From a virus: DNA of 22,106 bases. The notes under the pieces were generated by a model. That model had not been told where the DNA came from. It worked only from the letters and a program-made list of their open reading frames with translations, and ran no database searches. The stretch covers positions 1 through 22,106 of the IMG/VR virus record IMGVR_UViG_3300013133_000078; one strand, given 5' to 3'. Position numbers and translations under genes: made by a program. Shown one piece after another: positions 10,194-21,634 of the stretch. How positions within the stretch are numbered: the stretch's first letter is position 1; each line of letters begins with the position of its first letter.

Positions 10194-11803
10194 CAGAACG
10201 CCTCCTTGTACAGCTCGGCCAACCCCTCTGTTACGTCCACCAGTTCCGCGTCAGTTCCCGAGAATCCGCGCGTAACCGTGAACGTCGTGGTGCTGGACTC
10301 CCCCGCCCCGGACGTGGCCGATCTCCACGTCCCTGCCACACCCTCGACGTAAAACTGCTCTTGATGCCCATGATCCCCACCGTCCAGGATCAACCGCTGC
10401 CCGATTCGGATCTCAGGCGCGAGTAACTTCGTCACGACCGTCCCTTGCCGCAGATACGGGTTCGGCGCGTTCCAATCCCGCAAGATCCGCTGCCAGATCC
10501 GACGCTCTGCCTGCCAGTCAGCCTCGCCCCCCTTGCCCTCGGCCACGTATTTCGTGGACTCCTGCAAAGCGCGCAGCCCACGGACTTCAATGTCACGCGG
10601 CCTCCAGACAGGCTTGCCGTACGCTGCCTGATTCGTTTTCGGGCCCAGCCCTACCTCGGCCAGCAATTCAAAAAGATTGAACCTATCGTGTCCTGCGCGG
10701 CCCAGGTCGGTTTGCAGCAGCGTCCAGGTTGGCAGCCTCCACGTCGGCAACGCGAACCACATTGAGTCCAGGCCCAGATCCGTCGTCGGGAATGGCCGCT
10801 CCCGGCAAAACGCGGCCATCGTCCCAAAGGGCTCCACGTCCGCCGTCGGCGACTGCCCGCCCAGCCGACTCGCAAACCGCTCGTTCTTGACCGACAGGAA
10901 CCGCGACAGGCCGTTCGGTGGCGTGAACGCCGCGGGCATCGCCAGATCGTACCAAAACTCGTTCAGCATCGGGTTCGCCCACTGCGTGAGCAACGAGTGC
11001 AAATCCTGCTCGCCCACCGTCCACAACCCAGGCTGGTTGTAGTAACCACCCCTCAGCCCCTTCGTGCCCGGCACCGCGTCGAACGTGATCACGTTCAGCG
11101 CATCGATCAGACGCTCGCCCACCTGCTTGCTGGCCAACGACGTAGGAAGCACCCACTGCCCCGCGGGATTCCCCGCAGCCGCTTCCGACGGATTGCTGTC
11201 AAACGCAGCCGTGATCAGAATCGAAAACAACTCGTCAGGTCGGCCACCCACAGACCCCTGGACCCGATCCGTGAACAGACCGCGCGCCAGCTCCCCCAAC
11301 GTTCGCGACCAAAGGCTTGACCACGTGATCGGGTACTCGAAAAACGCCCCGTGGTCCCTGCCCGTCAACGTGTACGTGATCGACGTGGCACCCCCGACAC
11401 TTGAACGCGCTTCCCTCACAGAATCCACTACCCCGCGCATCACTGGGATCTCAATCCCGTTGCGTAGCACGGACAAGTCTATCCAGTCCCCGTCGAGCAC
11501 AGCCTGATTCGTCAGCTCCAACAGCTCCCCGGTTTCCGTGTGCTTGGGCTTTACCGTCGCACTCCAACTACCTGCGGACTGCCCCATCTGCTTCGACCAC
11601 TGGATCGAAACAAGGGCAGCGTCACTGTCTTCCGTCCAATCCAGGACGATCATGCGCGAGCTGCGCGACCGCTTGAACGGGCTCAGATCGGCAACCGGAT
11701 AAATGCGCAGACGGGCACGCGTGTGCGGCGCAACAAACGCGCGACCAGGCTGTGACGCCAATCCAGGTAGCGAGACAGGCGATATTTGACGTGCAGTGCC
11801 CAT
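10193..11803 (-). CDS. Baseplate hub protein (gp27/gpD/gp44-like)
   Basis: A 536-aa protein encoded between tape measure and spike, the standard position of the trimeric hub that adapts six-fold tube to three-fold spike. The N-terminal region has a beta-barrel-like stretch (ALVSIQWSKQMGQSAGSWSA, DWIDLSVLRNGIEIPVMRGV, SITYTLTGRDHGAFFE) typical of tube-like hub domains. The C-terminal 100 residues (APEIRIGQRLILDGG, EQFYVEGVAGTWRSA, STTTFTVTRGF) match the last beta domain of gpD-type late control/hub proteins. The centre, about 200-440, is long and mixed, with many aromatics. The start ATG 11803 overlaps the tape measure stop (TGATG). Assigned from location plus C-terminal resemblance; subfamily unknown. 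Confidence 0.85.
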   Translation of the reverse strand: MGTARQISPVSLPGLASQPGRAFVAPHTRARLRIYPVADLSPFKRSRSSRMIVLDWTEDSDAALVSIQWSKQMGQSAGSWSATVKPKHTETGELLELTNQAVLDGDWIDLSVLRNGIEIPVMRGVVDSVREARSSVGGATSITYTLTGRDHGAFFEYPITWSSLWSRTLGELARGLFTDRVQGSVGGRPDELFSILITAAFDSNPSEAAAGNPAGQWVLPTSLASKQVGERLIDALNVITFDAVPGTKGLRGGYYNQPGLWTVGEQDLHSLLTQWANPMLNEFWYDLAMPAAFTPPNGLSRFLSVKNERFASRLGGQSPTADVEPFGTMAAFCRERPFPTTDLGLDSMWFALPTWRLPTWTLLQTDLGRAGHDRFNLFELLAEVGLGPKTNQAAYGKPVWRPRDIEVRGLRALQESTKYVAEGKGGEADWQAERRIWQRILRDWNAPNPYLRQGTVVTKLLAPEIRIGQRLILDGGDHGHQEQFYVEGVAGTWRSATSGAGESSTTTFTVTRGFSGTDAELVDVTEGLAELYKEAF

Positions 11804-13773
11804 CAGAACGTCGGCACCAACTTGCGGGCCAACTCCTCAAAGAACGCCTTGATCTTCTCCCACATACCGCCAAACCCGCCCTTCGTGAAATCCACAATAG
11901 TGTCTATCGCGTACCGCACAAGTCCGTTCAGCTTCGAGATCTCGTCTTTGAAGTTGCCCACTAACTTGCCCGTTTCGATCAAGTTGGCCTCCATCCCCTT
12001 CATGATTCCCGCCACCTCGTTTCCGATCCCGACACGCTGTGCCTCCAGCTCAGCGGCACCTCGTGCAGCGGGCGATACTTCCCCCGTGAGGCCCTTCGCC
12101 GACTTGATCATGTCCTGCATGCCGCCCCCAGCCGCTTGTCGCGACAGGATGGACGAAATGTCGGGCGTCTTGCCGTCGGCGAATGCTTTCAGCAGCGCGT
12201 CCGCTTGATCGAAATCAATGGACATTCCTGCTTCCCCCATTCGATCCACGAGGCTCAACGCAGCCCCAGGCTTGCCAAATCCACCCGATCCCTCCACCAA
12301 GCGCGCGATCATGTTCTGCCTCGTGGCAGCGTCGTTCTTGCTCAGCTTCCGGCGTGCGTCCTCGTACGACTGCAACCCGCCCGATGGATCGTAGCCCGCA
12401 GCACGCATCCACATCAGGTCCATTGGATCTTGCACGCCGTGCATGCCCGTCTTCTGCGCAGACGCAACAAGCCCGCTTGTGATCCTTCCCGCCTGCGATC
12501 CCTTCAGGCCCGCCGCGTTTAGGCTCATAGCCGTGGCCATCGCCTCGTCCATGCTCACCTTCATGCCCTCGCGCTCGGCCTTGGTTTGCAGATCCACCAA
12601 CGTCGTCAGCAGCTCGACAACCTGCGAACCCTCCAGATCCATCGCCGTCGCACCCTGCAACACCGACGCGAGGCTCTGCCCAGACATACCGCCGCCCCCG
12701 GCCATCCCGCCGCGCTGGAACCGTCCCGCCGTCTGCGCGTCCACGCCGTACACACGCTGCGCGGCCAGCGCCTCCTGGAAACGGTACATGTCGTACGTCT
12801 GCATTCGCCCGCCCTTGGCGTGCGCGAACTGACCCAGGTGGGCTTGCACCTCCGTCGGGGTGAAACCCATGTCCACCCCGAAATCCACACCGGGAAGTCC
12901 CCTGCTCGTCCCCGGCATATCCGTCACCGGACGTGACATCGCCTTGGGCTTGCTCTTTTGCTCTTTCGCCTGCGCGTCCAGCGCCGTTTGCAGATCCTTG
13001 GCGCGCTTCACGTCGTTGTCCGCGTCCTCGAACACGTCTCGGTGCTTGACCGCAGTGTCGGCCTTTGCCTGCGCCAAGATCTGACGCAACTCCAGGGGCA
13101 GCAGCGACCGCTCAGGCCCGCCCATCTCCTCCACGGCGACAGATCCGTTCTCGCGCCCCATGTACGGGATGTTCCCCATGCGCGCTTGCTGCCAGCCCAC
13201 CGCCGACTGGTACGACCCCGAAGCACTTCCCAATGCCCCCGCCGCGAACCCGCCCAGGATCGGAATGCCCGCCACCGCTTGCTGCAACCCACCCAGGCCC
13301 GGCGTCATGAACGGTGCCGCCCCCGCGCGCATCGCCTGCGCAGCGCCTGCGCCCAGCATCCTCCCTCCCATCCCAGGATCCGTCGGAATGTACTGAGCCA
13401 AGCCGCTCCCCTGCCCGAACCCCGCCACAAAGTTGCGCCCAAACCCCTGCGACTTTTTGCGCGTGGCGCGCGCCTCCGCGGCGTCCAACCTGCTCAACGA
13501 CTGCGACAGCAGATCGCCTTGCGTCTTTACGCTCTTGAGCTGCGCAGCCAGCTCCTTGTACGCCTCGGTCCCTTCCTTCACGCCCTTCAGCTGCTCGACC
13601 AGGGCAGCTTGCTGCTTCACAACCGCCGAGAAATCTTTTTCGAGCCCGACAGCTTGCTTGCGGAAATCTGAAATTCGGTTCGGCGCAAACGTCTCGCGAA
13701 TGGTCTGCGCCATCTTCTTGAGCGCAGACCCTTCCGCTTCAACCTTGATCCTTGTTTTGACTTCCGTGGTCAT
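11803..13773 (-). CDS. Tail tape measure protein (656 aa)
   Basis: I choose ATG 13773 because it overlaps the chaperone stop as ATGA and follows GGGACGAAGC; a GTG four codons upstream (13785) would add MGRS and is less likely. Residues about 35-105 form a coiled coil (DFSAVVKQQAALVEQLKGVK, LAAQLKSVKTQGDLLSQSLS). A Gly/Ala-rich hydrophobic stretch at about 143-188 (GGLQQAVAGIPILGGFAAGA) may be the membrane-active part used during DNA ejection. The rest is helical with many Gln, Met and Gly. The C-terminus, EKIKAFFEELARKL, is amphipathic. Placement directly after the frameshifted chaperone and before the hub is diagnostic. If about 1.5 angstrom per residue applies, the tail would be roughly 100 nm. 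No peptidase or lytic transglycosylase motif is evident. Confidence 0.9.
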   Translation of the reverse strand: MTTEVKTRIKVEAEGSALKKMAQTIRETFAPNRISDFRKQAVGLEKDFSAVVKQQAALVEQLKGVKEGTEAYKELAAQLKSVKTQGDLLSQSLSRLDAAEARATRKKSQGFGRNFVAGFGQGSGLAQYIPTDPGMGGRMLGAGAAQAMRAGAAPFMTPGLGGLQQAVAGIPILGGFAAGALGSASGSYQSAVGWQQARMGNIPYMGRENGSVAVEEMGGPERSLLPLELRQILAQAKADTAVKHRDVFEDADNDVKRAKDLQTALDAQAKEQKSKPKAMSRPVTDMPGTSRGLPGVDFGVDMGFTPTEVQAHLGQFAHAKGGRMQTYDMYRFQEALAAQRVYGVDAQTAGRFQRGGMAGGGGMSGQSLASVLQGATAMDLEGSQVVELLTTLVDLQTKAEREGMKVSMDEAMATAMSLNAAGLKGSQAGRITSGLVASAQKTGMHGVQDPMDLMWMRAAGYDPSGGLQSYEDARRKLSKNDAATRQNMIARLVEGSGGFGKPGAALSLVDRMGEAGMSIDFDQADALLKAFADGKTPDISSILSRQAAGGGMQDMIKSAKGLTGEVSPAARGAAELEAQRVGIGNEVAGIMKGMEANLIETGKLVGNFKDEISKLNGLVRYAIDTIVDFTKGGFGGMWEKIKAFFEELARKLVPTF

Positions 13774-14249
13774 GCTTCGTCCCACTCACTTTCAGGTGGT
13801 GCTTGCTTCCGCTCGAAATCCGCAGCCGTGATCAACCCGTGCACGGCCCTGTATTCCCAGTAGTCGCCCAATGGATCCCCTGTCCTGCGAACCTGATTCC
13901 ACGCTTGGGCCGCTTGTGCTTGCGACGCGCCGTAAAGCACCTTTCGCTCGCTCGGCTCCAGAATGTCTTCGAGCGAACGCAACCGATCCAGCTGCGCGAC
14001 CGATAACTCGGCCACGGTGCTCCTCAACGCATCCCACTCGGTTGCCGCGTGGAAGTAAAACTCCTCCAGCAAGTCCCCCGGCGTGCGGTCCTCGAACGGC
14101 ACCCCTGCGTACTGCGGATATCGCGTGGCATGCCATGCTCGTAAACGTCCGATTCCGGTGCTAACCGCTGCTTTCGCCGCTTCCCGCAGACGATCCCCGT
14201 CGGAGAAACGTGGCCTCGTGAGAGACGACCTCCGTGTACAGCAGGTCAA
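13770..14249 (-). CDS. Tail assembly chaperone, downstream frame (T part of a G-T frameshift fusion)
   Basis: This frame overlaps the first chaperone ORF by 89 nt in another phase and ends at TGA 13770, overlapping the tape measure ATG. It has no ATG codon anywhere; the only nominal start is a TTG at 14249 directly after a stop. Its first 17 or so residues (CCTRRSSLTRPRF) look like out-of-frame translation, and sensible sequence begins near DGDRLREAAKAAV. That is what is expected when it is made only as an extension of the upstream ORF, as in lambda G/GT and the Mu, P2 and HK97 equivalents. The phase needs +1 or -2 slippage. The domain is mostly helical (LLEEFYFHAATEWDALR, SQAQAAQAWNQVRR) and would recruit the tape measure. 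The fusion would be about 284 aa. Confidence 0.82.
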   Translation of the reverse strand: MTCCTRRSSLTRPRFSDGDRLREAAKAAVSTGIGRLRAWHATRYPQYAGVPFEDRTPGDLLEEFYFHAATEWDALRSTVAELSVAQLDRLRSLEDILEPSERKVLYGASQAQAAQAWNQVRRTGDPLGDYWEYRAVHGLITAADFERKQAPPESEWDEA

Positions 14250-14625
14250 TCAGCTCCTCGTAAAACAGATCGTCCAGCTTCCGCGCCCACTTTGGAAACC
14301 CCTCGACCGTCTGATCCAGGGACACCATCAGGTGCGCCAGCTTTTCGTTCAGGATCCACACGTCCGCGTCCAGGGCAGCAACCGTGAGATCAGCTGCCAG
14401 CTTGGCCTTGATGATCTTCACCTGCCGACGCTGGCCGACCGTGAGCACCTTGTTGCGGAAATGACCACGCCACCGATTCCCCTGCGGATCCCGCCAGTCG
14501 ATCTCGAACTCGTACGTCAGCGCGGCCTTCGGGTCCACAGAAGCTGCGTCGTCGCCCGCTTCCTGATTGCGCCCAGTCACCTTGTCCGCGATAGCTGCCG
14601 AGTCTCCCAGTTCCGGTATGTTCAC
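14161..14625 (-). CDS. Tail assembly chaperone, upstream frame (G part)
   Basis: A 154-aa protein with GTG start at 14625 and GAGGAG 5 nt upstream, a strong ribosome site. It opens with an acidic, disordered 30 residues (MNIPELGDSAAIADKV). A globular domain follows: ALTYEFEIDWRDPQGNRWRG, KVLTVGQRRQVKIIKAKL, and ALDADVWILNEKLAHLMVSL. This layout resembles chaperone subunits of myovirus tails. It ends in a low-complexity RRGSSAGSGESSG at TAG 14161. Position between tail tube and tape measure and the overlapping second frame are the hallmarks of the G/GT pair, which binds and solubilises the tape measure before tube polymerisation. Not part of the finished virion in known systems. Confidence 0.85.
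   Translation of the reverse strand: MNIPELGDSAAIADKVTGRNQEAGDDAASVDPKAALTYEFEIDWRDPQGNRWRGHFRNKVLTVGQRRQVKIIKAKLAADLTVAALDADVWILNEKLAHLMVSLDQTVEGFPKWARKLDDLFYEELIDLLYTEVVSHEATFLRRGSSAGSGESSG
14194..14208 (-). promoter_or_regulatory. Candidate programmed frameshift region in chaperone overlap
   Basis: In the overlap the zero-frame codons read TTT CTC CGA CGG GGA TCG. Two slips would enter the downstream frame. One is +1 on TTT, re-pairing tRNA-Phe with TTC, then TCC GAC GGG. The other is -2 on GGA, re-pairing tRNA-Gly with GGG in the CGGGGA run, then GAT CGT. Both join the frame just before DGDRLREAA. No obvious pseudoknot was identified by eye. The region is well supported; the exact slip is a guess. 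Confidence 0.5.
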
Positions 14626-19412: not shown

Positions 19413-20249
19413 TCATTCCGCGTTGACTAGATACTCCAGTTTCACCACGGCCTGCACGGGCAGGATCGTGAACTTTTGCGAAGGAATCCCCTTCCCGCCT
19501 TCCACCTGCGTATCGCGATACGCGTGCACAATGTCCATCACGATCCACACGGGACGCACAGTGCCGTGCACCACCAGGCGAGTACCCGTTGCGGGCCGCG
19601 CGGTAAACGCAGGGTGCCACTGAATCTCCCCGTCCACCGTCAGAATCCAATCGCGATTCTCCCTGTACACGGTGTCCACGCTCCGAAAATCGTGAACGCG
19701 CACCATTGGGTAGCGTAACCCCTGCTTGTTTCGATCTCCCACGACAGCAATCACGTCCCCGCCTGCGTAGTCAATGTGCTGCGCGTACACCATCTCGCTT
19801 TTCATCGCCGTCAACCGATCACGGTACCCAAGCCGGTTCCCGGCCTGCGTCGTGACCCGTGACGTGCCGAACACCCATTCCCCGAACTTCTCGAACACCT
19901 GCACGTCCTGAGTCATGCTCGTCATGATCGCCTTGATGCTTATGGCCTTTCCATCAGGGCTCACCACAACCTCGTTTCCGTACCGATCCTTTGTGCCGCC
20001 TGCGATCACAGTAGGCTCGGGCAAGAACAGATAGAACCCCGTGCCTTTGCACAGCGTGCACAAGATGTTCGGTTGCTCTGTTTGCACGTTGTTGCTGCAT
20101 GGGCAGGGCGCACTACGCGACCACCAAAGATCGTACCCCTTGGATAGAATCGCTTGATCGTACTCCGTCGGATTGAAGTCCGCGCGCGGACGGTCCTTCA
20201 CCGACGGTGGCAACCCAGTCGCAATTTCAGGTTTCAGATTTCCAACCAT
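19413..20249 (-). CDS. Head-tail junction protein with CxC...CxxCxGxG zinc-type motif
   Basis: A 278-aa protein. Near its N-terminus Cys49, Cys51, Cys64 and Cys67 occur as C-P-C, 12 residues, then CTLCKGTGF. The second half is the CxxCxGxG unit found in DnaJ-type zinc domains. Similar CPC...CxxCxGTG segments also occur, to my recollection, in structural proteins of other tailed phages, so it most likely binds one zinc ion as a folding element. The remainder is beta-rich (VYAQHIDYAGGDVIAVVGDR, DWILTVDGEIQWHPAF, GTRLVVHGTVRPVWIVMDIV). The ATG at 20249 lies inside the end of the J-domain gene (16-bp overlap). The place between the gp6-like and gp10-like genes suggests a head-completion or stopper-type role. 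Function inferred. Confidence 0.75.
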   Translation of the reverse strand: MVGNLKPEIATGLPPSVKDRPRADFNPTEYDQAILSKGYDLWWSRSAPCPCSNNVQTEQPNILCTLCKGTGFYLFLPEPTVIAGGTKDRYGNEVVVSPDGKAISIKAIMTSMTQDVQVFEKFGEWVFGTSRVTTQAGNRLGYRDRLTAMKSEMVYAQHIDYAGGDVIAVVGDRNKQGLRYPMVRVHDFRSVDTVYRENRDWILTVDGEIQWHPAFTARPATGTRLVVHGTVRPVWIVMDIVHAYRDTQVEGGKGIPSQKFTILPVQAVVKLEYLVNAE

Positions 20250-20602
20250 ATGTAGCCGCCTCCGTCAGATGTTGCAGTCGTGCTGTAATGCGAATGCACA
20301 CGTATGTAGGTGCGTCTGAATGCAAACGCAACAACCGGACGGGGGCGATCCATTGATGCCAGTGCTTCGTCGATTGAGGCCGTCAGCACGTCCGCCGCAG
20401 CATTCGCGATAGCCATTGCCTCGGCAGAACCCCCACGATCCGGATGCACAGCCAACGCTTTTTTCACGCGGGCAGCTTTGACCAGGGCACGCATTTCCGT
20501 GAAGGCAGCGCGAACATCAACTGTAGACGCGAGTGCTTCCAATGCTTCAAGCAGGTCCAGCTCTTTCGCAGCCGCGACAATTTGATCGTAACTACCGCGC
20601 AT
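20234..20602 (-). CDS. Phage-encoded J-domain (DnaJ-like) protein
   Basis: A 122-aa protein with ATG 3 nt after the previous stop. Residues 46-77 carry RVKKALAVHPDRGG and then AEAMAIANAAADVLTA. That is helix II with the invariant His53-Pro54-Asp55, the loop DRGG, and helix III, as in J-domain co-chaperones; polyomavirus T antigens have the similar HPDKGG. The HPD tripeptide stimulates the ATPase of Hsp70 (DnaK). The preceding helices (IVAAAKELDLLEALEALA, VRAAFTEMRALVKAA) are longer and more acidic than a classical helix I. The C-terminal 35 residues (VVAFAFRRTYIRVHSHYS, GGYIWLEI) are beta-like and specific to this protein. It might recruit host DnaK to fold or assemble connector proteins. The J motif is clear; biochemical activity is inferred. 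Confidence 0.82.
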   Translation of the reverse strand: MRGSYDQIVAAAKELDLLEALEALASTVDVRAAFTEMRALVKAARVKKALAVHPDRGGSAEAMAIANAAADVLTASIDEALASMDRPRPVVAFAFRRTYIRVHSHYSTTATSDGGGYIWLEI

Positions 20603-20605
20603 GCT

Positions 20606-21634
20606 TCACCCCAAAGGCGCGAGATCGATCCGCTTGTAGTACCGTTGCAGTGTCGGAATCACTTCCTTGATCTCCTTCGAGTACTGGATCAGGCGGGAAC
20701 CGTAGCCCGCGTTGGTCGCGCTCGACGTGGTGTTCACCGACTGCGACAGGCCGTCGATTGAGATCGACTTGGACGCGATACCAGCACCTGCAATCAAATC
20801 GCCCGCGATGTTCAACGGACCGAACGAGGCCAGCTTCCCGATCAAATCGCGGATATCCATAGGAACTTGCCCGTCGGGAAAGCCTGCCGTGTAGTCCACC
20901 GACAGCATATTGGGCACGAAATCTCGGCCACTCGCGATGATCGGCAAGAACGATCCACCCGCCGTCAGCAGCATTTGAGACAGCGATCCGCTGGCCGGAA
21001 CGATGTTCACCTGCCCCGAATCCTGCCGCACCTGGATCCACTCTGGCGGAAAGTCGATCACCGTCTGATTCGACGGCCACGTCACACGCACCTTTTCAAC
21101 GCTGATCACCGGGCTCTCGCGCAGGTTGATGATCGTCCAGGCCACGTAATCGTTGCGGTAGTAGTCATACCGCTCGTCAACAAGCACAGTGGGCCTGATC
21201 CGAATGTCCAGCTTCCGCTCAACCCAGGCAATCGCCCACCGAATGCCCCACTCGAACAGCAAGTCCGGGAACGGCTCACCAGCGTCATTCGTGAGATCCA
21301 CACCGAACAGGTACAGATCCTTGAGATCGCTCACGGTCATGATGTTGGCCGTGGATGCCTCGTCCCCCAGAATGGGCGCACTGAAATTCGACGCGTTCAG
21401 CGTACCCGAATTGAAGTACCGGGTTTTGTAGTAGTAGATGATGTCGCCGTTGGTGTCGTCGTATTCGTACGACTCCACGCCTTGCTGCATGTTGATCCGC
21501 GTACCAGGGCCCGAGATCTCCGTGTACACCCCGTTGATCCCAGTGGTGCTGCGGAACACTTGCAGCTGATCGAACGACTGCAACACGTTGTCCAGTTTGG
21601 CCACTCGTACCGTGATCTTGATCTGCGTAGGCAT
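20606..21634 (-). CDS. gp6-like head-tail connector with Fn3-like N-terminal domain
   Basis: A 342-aa protein with ATG overlapping the previous stop (TGATG). Residues about 5-90 resemble a fibronectin type III fold: ITVRVAKLDNVLQSFDQLQV, YEYDDTNGDIIYYYKTRYFN and SNFSAPI, i.e. two sheets ending in the usual Y-x-Y-K...S-x-F-S-x-P. From about 100 the sequence is helical then mixed (SDLKDLYLFGVDLTNDAGEP, FEWGIRWAIAWVERKLDIRI, NLRESPVISVEKVRV), like the gp6-type head-tail adaptor. The C-terminus (GYGSRLIQYSKEIKEVIPTL then QRYYKRI) is helical and may insert in the portal ring. It is the most upstream complete gene here; portal and capsid genes would be expected beyond the right edge. Confidence 0.78.
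   Translation of the reverse strand: MPTQIKITVRVAKLDNVLQSFDQLQVFRSTTGINGVYTEISGPGTRINMQQGVESYEYDDTNGDIIYYYKTRYFNSGTLNASNFSAPILGDEASTANIMTVSDLKDLYLFGVDLTNDAGEPFPDLLFEWGIRWAIAWVERKLDIRIRPTVLVDERYDYYRNDYVAWTIINLRESPVISVEKVRVTWPSNQTVIDFPPEWIQVRQDSGQVNIVPASGSLSQMLLTAGGSFLPIIASGRDFVPNMLSVDYTAGFPDGQVPMDIRDLIGKLASFGPLNIAGDLIAGAGIASKSISIDGLSQSVNTTSSATNAGYGSRLIQYSKEIKEVIPTLQRYYKRIDLAPLG

Follow-up and report, generated by a model that had tools for sequence, protein, structure and literature searches.

A minimal J-domain protein encoded at the adaptor/stopper junction of the neck in a clade of SPO1/812-like phages, a possible late co-chaperone

Phage-encoded J proteins are already known, as is the zinc loop of the phage neck stopper. 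The only characterised phage J protein that we found in the literature searched is Rki (gp057w) of Escherichia phage RB43, an early, host-directed protein whose J domain works with DnaK and which stabilises sigma-32 (PMC3486835). A short tail can give a J protein its partner, as in AtcJ of Shewanella oneidensis, where a 21-aa tail binds the product of another gene of its operon (PMC6715715). The crystal structure of gp97, the stopper of Staphylococcus phage 812, shows zinc bound by a CPC-(X)n-CxxC loop, and this zinc site and the stopper core move together as one rigid body upon tail docking and gate opening (PMC12886913).

We analyzed a virus record of 22,106 bases (the window), whose minus strand carries the genes of a contractile phage, with neck, tail sheath, tail and baseplate genes; PHROG matches were obtained for a head-tail adaptor, a tail sheath and a baseplate wedge, and a Pfam match for a phage sheath. 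Both open reading frames singled out in the preliminary description (122 and 278 aa), together with the HPD motif of the first and the cysteine motif of the second, were confirmed in place on the minus strand, where they overlap by 16 nt. The neck genes and their features, in window coordinates, are as follows.

20606..21634, minus strand: 342-aa neck adaptor of the phage 812 gp96 / SPO1 gp6.3 family (matches to 8q01_b and SPO1 gp6.3)
20234..20602, minus strand: gene for the 122-aa minimal J-domain protein (syntenic HPD open reading frames in L003-L006, profile matches to solved J domains, predicted model)
20447..20515, minus strand: codons of predicted helix II, residues 30-52 (AlphaFold model)
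20438..20446, minus strand: codons of the HPD tripeptide, residues 53-55 (sequence; invariant in all five members)
20348..20425, minus strand: codons of predicted helix III, residues 60-85 (AlphaFold model)
20237..20347, minus strand: C-terminal tail of the J protein, residues 86-122, with phi-x-phi-R-phi, an S/T-rich stretch and an aromatic residue near the end
20234..20249, minus strand: 16-nt overlap between the end of the J gene and the start of the stopper gene
19413..20249, minus strand: 278-aa neck stopper of the phage 812 gp97 / SPO1 gp6.4 family (matches to 8q01_S by phmmer, profile and Foldseek)
20049..20105, minus strand: tetra-cysteine loop CPC...CxxC, residues 49-67, the stopper zinc site (invariant in 12 sequences; zinc in the phage 812 gp97 crystal)

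Elsewhere on the minus strand of the window, two small open reading frames, 14161-14625 and 13770-14249, share 89 nt in different frames and lie directly ahead of a putative tape-measure gene (11803-13785). They may be tail assembly chaperones made through a programmed frameshift, and no slippery site was established for the pair within positions 13770-14625.

Judged from sequence comparison and the predicted structure, the 122-aa protein, although divergent, is a genuine J-domain protein. Taken alone, it scored 12.0 bits (E 0.23) against the Pfam DnaJ profile (PF00226), below the gathering cut-off of 27.8 bits. Four relatives (L003, L004, L005 and L006), however, carry an open reading frame of 109-124 aa at the identical junction, with the HPD tripeptide in 4/4 (AHPDRSGG, AHPDLGGD, AHPDRGGS and NHPDHGGD), and all five family members match PF00226, with a best E of 0.004. 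The J-domain assignment of the preliminary description thus failed the Pfam cut-off for the single sequence but held for the family, because the five-member profile, searched against PDB sequences, placed J domains first: SV40 large T (8.6e-7) and small T (2.6e-6), with DnaJ 2 (2.9e-4), human Hsp40 (4.2e-4) and TIM14 (6e-3) among the further J matches. Histone H2B, in which an HPD-like stretch also occurs, ranked lower in this search, with the exception of one fused H2B chain (6e-4).

Conservation within the family is concentrated around the HPD tripeptide. Loss of HPD from close homologues had been named in advance as a sign against a J domain; instead, the tripeptide is kept in all five syntenic members. 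Ten of the 11 invariant columns fall in residues 49-69, and the corresponding p of about 1e-7 for this 21-column block serves only as a guide, because the block was picked after the data had been seen. Mean pairwise identity among the five members is 60% in residues 49-69 versus 19-35% elsewhere. Synteny and column conservation together rule out a chance HPD, and the codon-position pattern indicates protein-level constraint on the J gene in most pairs. By contrast with its neighbours, the J protein diverges fast: overall identity between the window protein and its four relatives is 23-36%, compared to about 70% for the adaptor and 55% for the stopper. A scan of the J proteins against a defence library gave nothing convincing, one member matching Cas7b with an E of 0.009.

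The AlphaFold model, for which the five-row alignment was the input, has helices at residues 5-14, 18-24, 30-52 and 60-85, with a core pLDDT of about 90. In this high-confidence model, a basic helix II (30-52) precedes the HPD loop (53-55) and runs antiparallel to helix III (60-85), which is the arrangement expected of a J domain and agrees with the helix spacing that had been proposed from the sequence. The two N-terminal helices are short, there is no helix after residue 85, and the tail is predicted to be disordered from residue 89 to residue 122; helix IV and a canonical QKRAA-like J-domain end are not apparent in the 122-aa protein. Foldseek searches with the model returned the J protein Tim14 as the top PDB match (probability 0.94, E 1.6) and, from a viral library, T antigens together with J proteins of phages as the highest-ranked matches. 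We take these searches as supporting only, because the top ranks are sensible but the E-values are not significant.

Despite its divergence, the tail has recurrent features. A short phi-x-phi-[RHE]-phi motif (TYIRV, TVVRI, VQVRV, VQVEV and TVIHV), defined from these same sequences, recurs in all five tails, as do an S/T-rich stretch and an aromatic residue near the end. A conserved C-terminal Trp could, in the window and in L003 and L004, have arisen simply because the stop and start codons overlap there; L005 and L006 keep the Trp where it is not so constrained, and this explanation was rejected.

To place the gene among relatives, we retained 80 adaptor loci from viral contigs. The neck J gene was present at 5/80: in one contig identical to part of the window (5,881/5,881 bases) and in L003-L006. 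In a tree of adaptor plus stopper, the five J-positive loci make up one side of a single branch, with a support of 94/94 that lies below the strict threshold of the tool, and this distribution fits a single gain. In the close relatives L007, L008, L009, L013 and L022, the adaptor leads straight into the stopper, with no neck J gene. Two of these, L022 (109-kb contig) and L009 (113-kb contig), each have a J domain elsewhere, in the replication region, as the C-terminal part of a phrog_9210 protein encoded beside recombinase-like and primase-like genes. In near relatives lacking the neck J gene, a J domain therefore sits in the replication module. The phrog_9210 proteins of these near relatives, lying between the recombinase-like and primase-like genes, are those of L102 (1006-1662; AHPDF) and L103 (859-1671; THPDK). 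The contigs that carry the neck J gene are themselves short. Two more distant long contigs, L099 among them, also encode a J protein, and nine long contigs of about 88-110 kb gave no J-domain match. A search of viral contigs and named phages with the J sequences recovered only the five known loci and unrelated larger J proteins; L130, for instance, is a phage J protein of 342 aa from a different genomic context. An adaptor scan of genome contigs yielded two loci, with a J gene at the junction in 0/2.

The J gene is tightly packed between its neighbours. In 5/5 J-positive loci its start coincides with the adaptor stop or lies only a few bases from it, and in 5/5 the stopper gene begins before the J gene has ended, the overlap being 1 to 16 nt according to which start codon is taken. 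No promoter-like site of the sigma-70 type, the type covered by the search, was found in the region. Co-expression of the J gene with the neck genes is the natural reading of this layout. The same junction is occupied in L051, L052 and L053 by open reading frames with repeated CxCGCG motifs, one of which has a weak HNH endonuclease match, and in L092 by an unrelated 111-aa open reading frame. The adaptor/stopper junction thus seems to tolerate inserts, so that position alone is weak evidence for the function of the J gene.

Starting from the observed homology, HPD core, synteny, clade pattern and stopper-gene overlap, we propose, with a probability of about one half, that the 122-aa protein is a small co-chaperone, expressed late, that delivers host DnaK to a client protein of the phage, plausibly a neck protein. 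According to this proposal, the gene for a minimal J protein, made of a J core and a short tail, would most simply have entered the adaptor/stopper junction a single time, within one clade of contractile phages of the SPO1/812 type, and would be translated together with the neck genes. The HPD face would engage the host Hsp70, DnaK, and trigger ATP hydrolysis, while the disordered S/T-rich tail would hold the phage client, a role for which AtcJ serves as a borrowed model. The client would most plausibly be encoded on the same mRNA, as are the adaptor, the stopper or another neck protein, and DnaK would thereby be aimed at its folding or assembly. The neighbouring zinc site is a structural element of the stopper in its own right.

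Several observations argue for a late co-chaperone. The HPD is kept in five syntenic members while the rest of the protein diverges, the family profile matches solved J domains, and the model has the helix-HPD-helix arrangement at a pLDDT of about 90. Foldseek ranks J proteins at the top, and the members form a single clade (support 94/94). In each of the five loci the gene follows closely on the adaptor stop and runs into the stopper start, with no sigma-70-type promoter-like site between. There are also precedents, Rki for a J domain working with DnaK (PMC3486835) and AtcJ for a tail that contacts an operon partner (PMC6715715). On the other hand, helix IV and the QKRAA-like end are not apparent, and because the junction takes unrelated inserts the position of the gene may be incidental. 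A stronger form of the proposal, in which the protein is dedicated to virion assembly, its tail binding the adaptor, the stopper or another neck protein so as to direct host DnaK to neck assembly, and its synthesis kept in step by the overlapping genes, we hold only tentatively. The main points against such a dedicated neck role are that the J protein diverges faster than the adaptor and stopper, and that close relatives build their necks without a neck J gene.

A somewhat unlikely alternative is that the J protein is directed at the host, diverting or modulating host DnaK as Rki does, or blunting a DnaJ-dependent defence, with the neck position setting only its late expression. Rki is a precedent for a phage J protein that is something other than a generic co-chaperone, rapid divergence outside the HPD core would fit a protein adapting to its hosts, the near relatives that lack the J gene at the neck have a J domain in another part of their genomes, and a DnaJ-dependent defence is cited in PMC12619734. 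However, Rki is expressed early, whereas the present gene lies inside the neck cluster, and the conserved tail motif suggests a specific partner.

We consider it improbable that the gene is moron-like cargo or encodes a minor virion protein, its product being J-derived in fold but not acting through DnaK. An insert-tolerant junction, where the HNH-like open reading frames of L051-L053 and the 111-aa open reading frame of L092 occupy the same place, would suit such a gene, as would its absence from most relatives, but the most conserved part of the protein is the HPD and the start of helix III, which is the part needed for Hsp70, and the codon-position pattern points to protein-level constraint in most pairs.

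The zinc motif next to the J gene belongs to the stopper. By homology and predicted structure, the 278-aa protein is a neck stopper, homologous to phage 812 gp97 and SPO1 gp6.4: it matches the phage 812 chain 8q01_S with an E of 2.7e-6 by phmmer, a 12-sequence stopper profile matches the same chain at 2.5e-13, and Foldseek with the model gave 8q01_S (1.4e-10) and 8qgr (6.6e-10), the latter entitled 'Stopper protein of phage 812 in closed conformation'. The confidence of this model is moderate, and the cysteine loop lies in a part with a pLDDT of about 50-60. Consistent with a neck module of the SPO1/812 type, the 342-aa adaptor matches 8q01_b (E 6.2e-25) and SPO1 gp6.3 (E 1e-33). The cysteines of the 278-aa protein are arranged as C49-P-C51...C64-x2-C67-K-G-T-G, and C49, P50, C51, C64 and C67 are invariant across 12 aligned stopper sequences, including those from loci without the J gene. 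The preliminary description had called this a DnaJ-style CxxCxGxG motif. The four cysteines bear this out in being invariant among relatives, but the second Gly of the 'GxG' is not conserved (GDA, GTG, GHG, GRG and GYG), and the motif is characteristic of stoppers of this family.

Type I DnaJ proteins combine a J domain, a G/F region and zinc modules with repeated CxxCxGxG. Instead of four such repeats joined to a J domain, a single CPC...CxxC site was found here, in a separate stopper protein. Stopper homology, invariance of the cysteines without the J gene and loss of the second Gly make the motif a feature of the stopper rather than one half of a DnaJ. A single co-chaperone divided between two genes, with the J domain in the 122-aa protein and a zinc client-binding module in the 278-aa protein, as the adjacency of the genes and the superficial CxxCxGxG match had suggested, is therefore rejected as extremely improbable, since the Cys4 loop belongs to a stopper family with a solved zinc-bound structure (phage 812 gp97), is kept in relatives without a J gene at the neck, and offers one zinc site where DnaJ has repeats, while the distant relative L099 carries both CxxCxGxG repeats and a J domain in one polypeptide. 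The other alternative that had been offered agrees in outline with our results: the J protein is genuine, and the zinc element next to it is an unrelated structural part of a neck protein. The L099 protein (1447-2292; 281 aa) has an N-terminal J domain followed by several CxxCxGxG repeats in a DnaJ-like layout. Neck genes with a tetra-cysteine stopper were also found in a 3.5-Mb Myxococcales MAG chromosome (L124; CP070713.1 3213667-3222704), as a prophage or a misassembly, and in a 99-kb contig of a Planctomycetota MAG (L123; JALORE010000001.1). The loop, which had been reported as confined to Herelleviridae, is thus widespread in uncultured phages, among them the loci in one Myxococcales and one Planctomycetota bin.

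Compared with the known systems, the neck genes themselves are familiar. The 342-aa and 278-aa proteins are homologues of phage 812 gp96/gp97 and SPO1 gp6.3/gp6.4, in the same order and with the same tetra-cysteine loop, although identity over the stopper is about 25%. In SPO1, by contrast, the end of the adaptor match (45303) and the start of the stopper match (45369) are too close together for a J gene to lie between them. A family consisting of the J domain alone at the adaptor/stopper junction was not found in the named phages, PHROG descriptions or papers searched, within the limits of those resources, nor did the literature, of which coverage was partial, yield a J protein encoded by a phage within a neck or assembly operon. 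The J segments of PHROG 9210, 13942 and 7739 match the HPD J core described here (E down to 3e-7), but these families are far longer (204-565 positions), and the two phrog_9210 members seen, with their C-terminal J domains, lie in the replication region, unlike the present neck gene. AtcJ, whose gene lies next to those of its partners, is likewise a short protein in which a J domain is joined to a short C-terminal tail (PMC6715715), much as the present protein has a J core and a short tail; AtcJ is, however, a bacterial cold-adaptation protein, and the likeness is one of layout. Sister phages without the short J protein between their neck genes provide a natural comparison for asking whether a phage can bring its own Hsp70 targeting factor to virion assembly. 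Like the 122-aa protein, Rki is a phage-encoded protein with an HPD J domain, but whereas Rki is an early host-takeover factor encoded outside the neck cluster, the present gene lies between adaptor and stopper, a position that suggests late expression.
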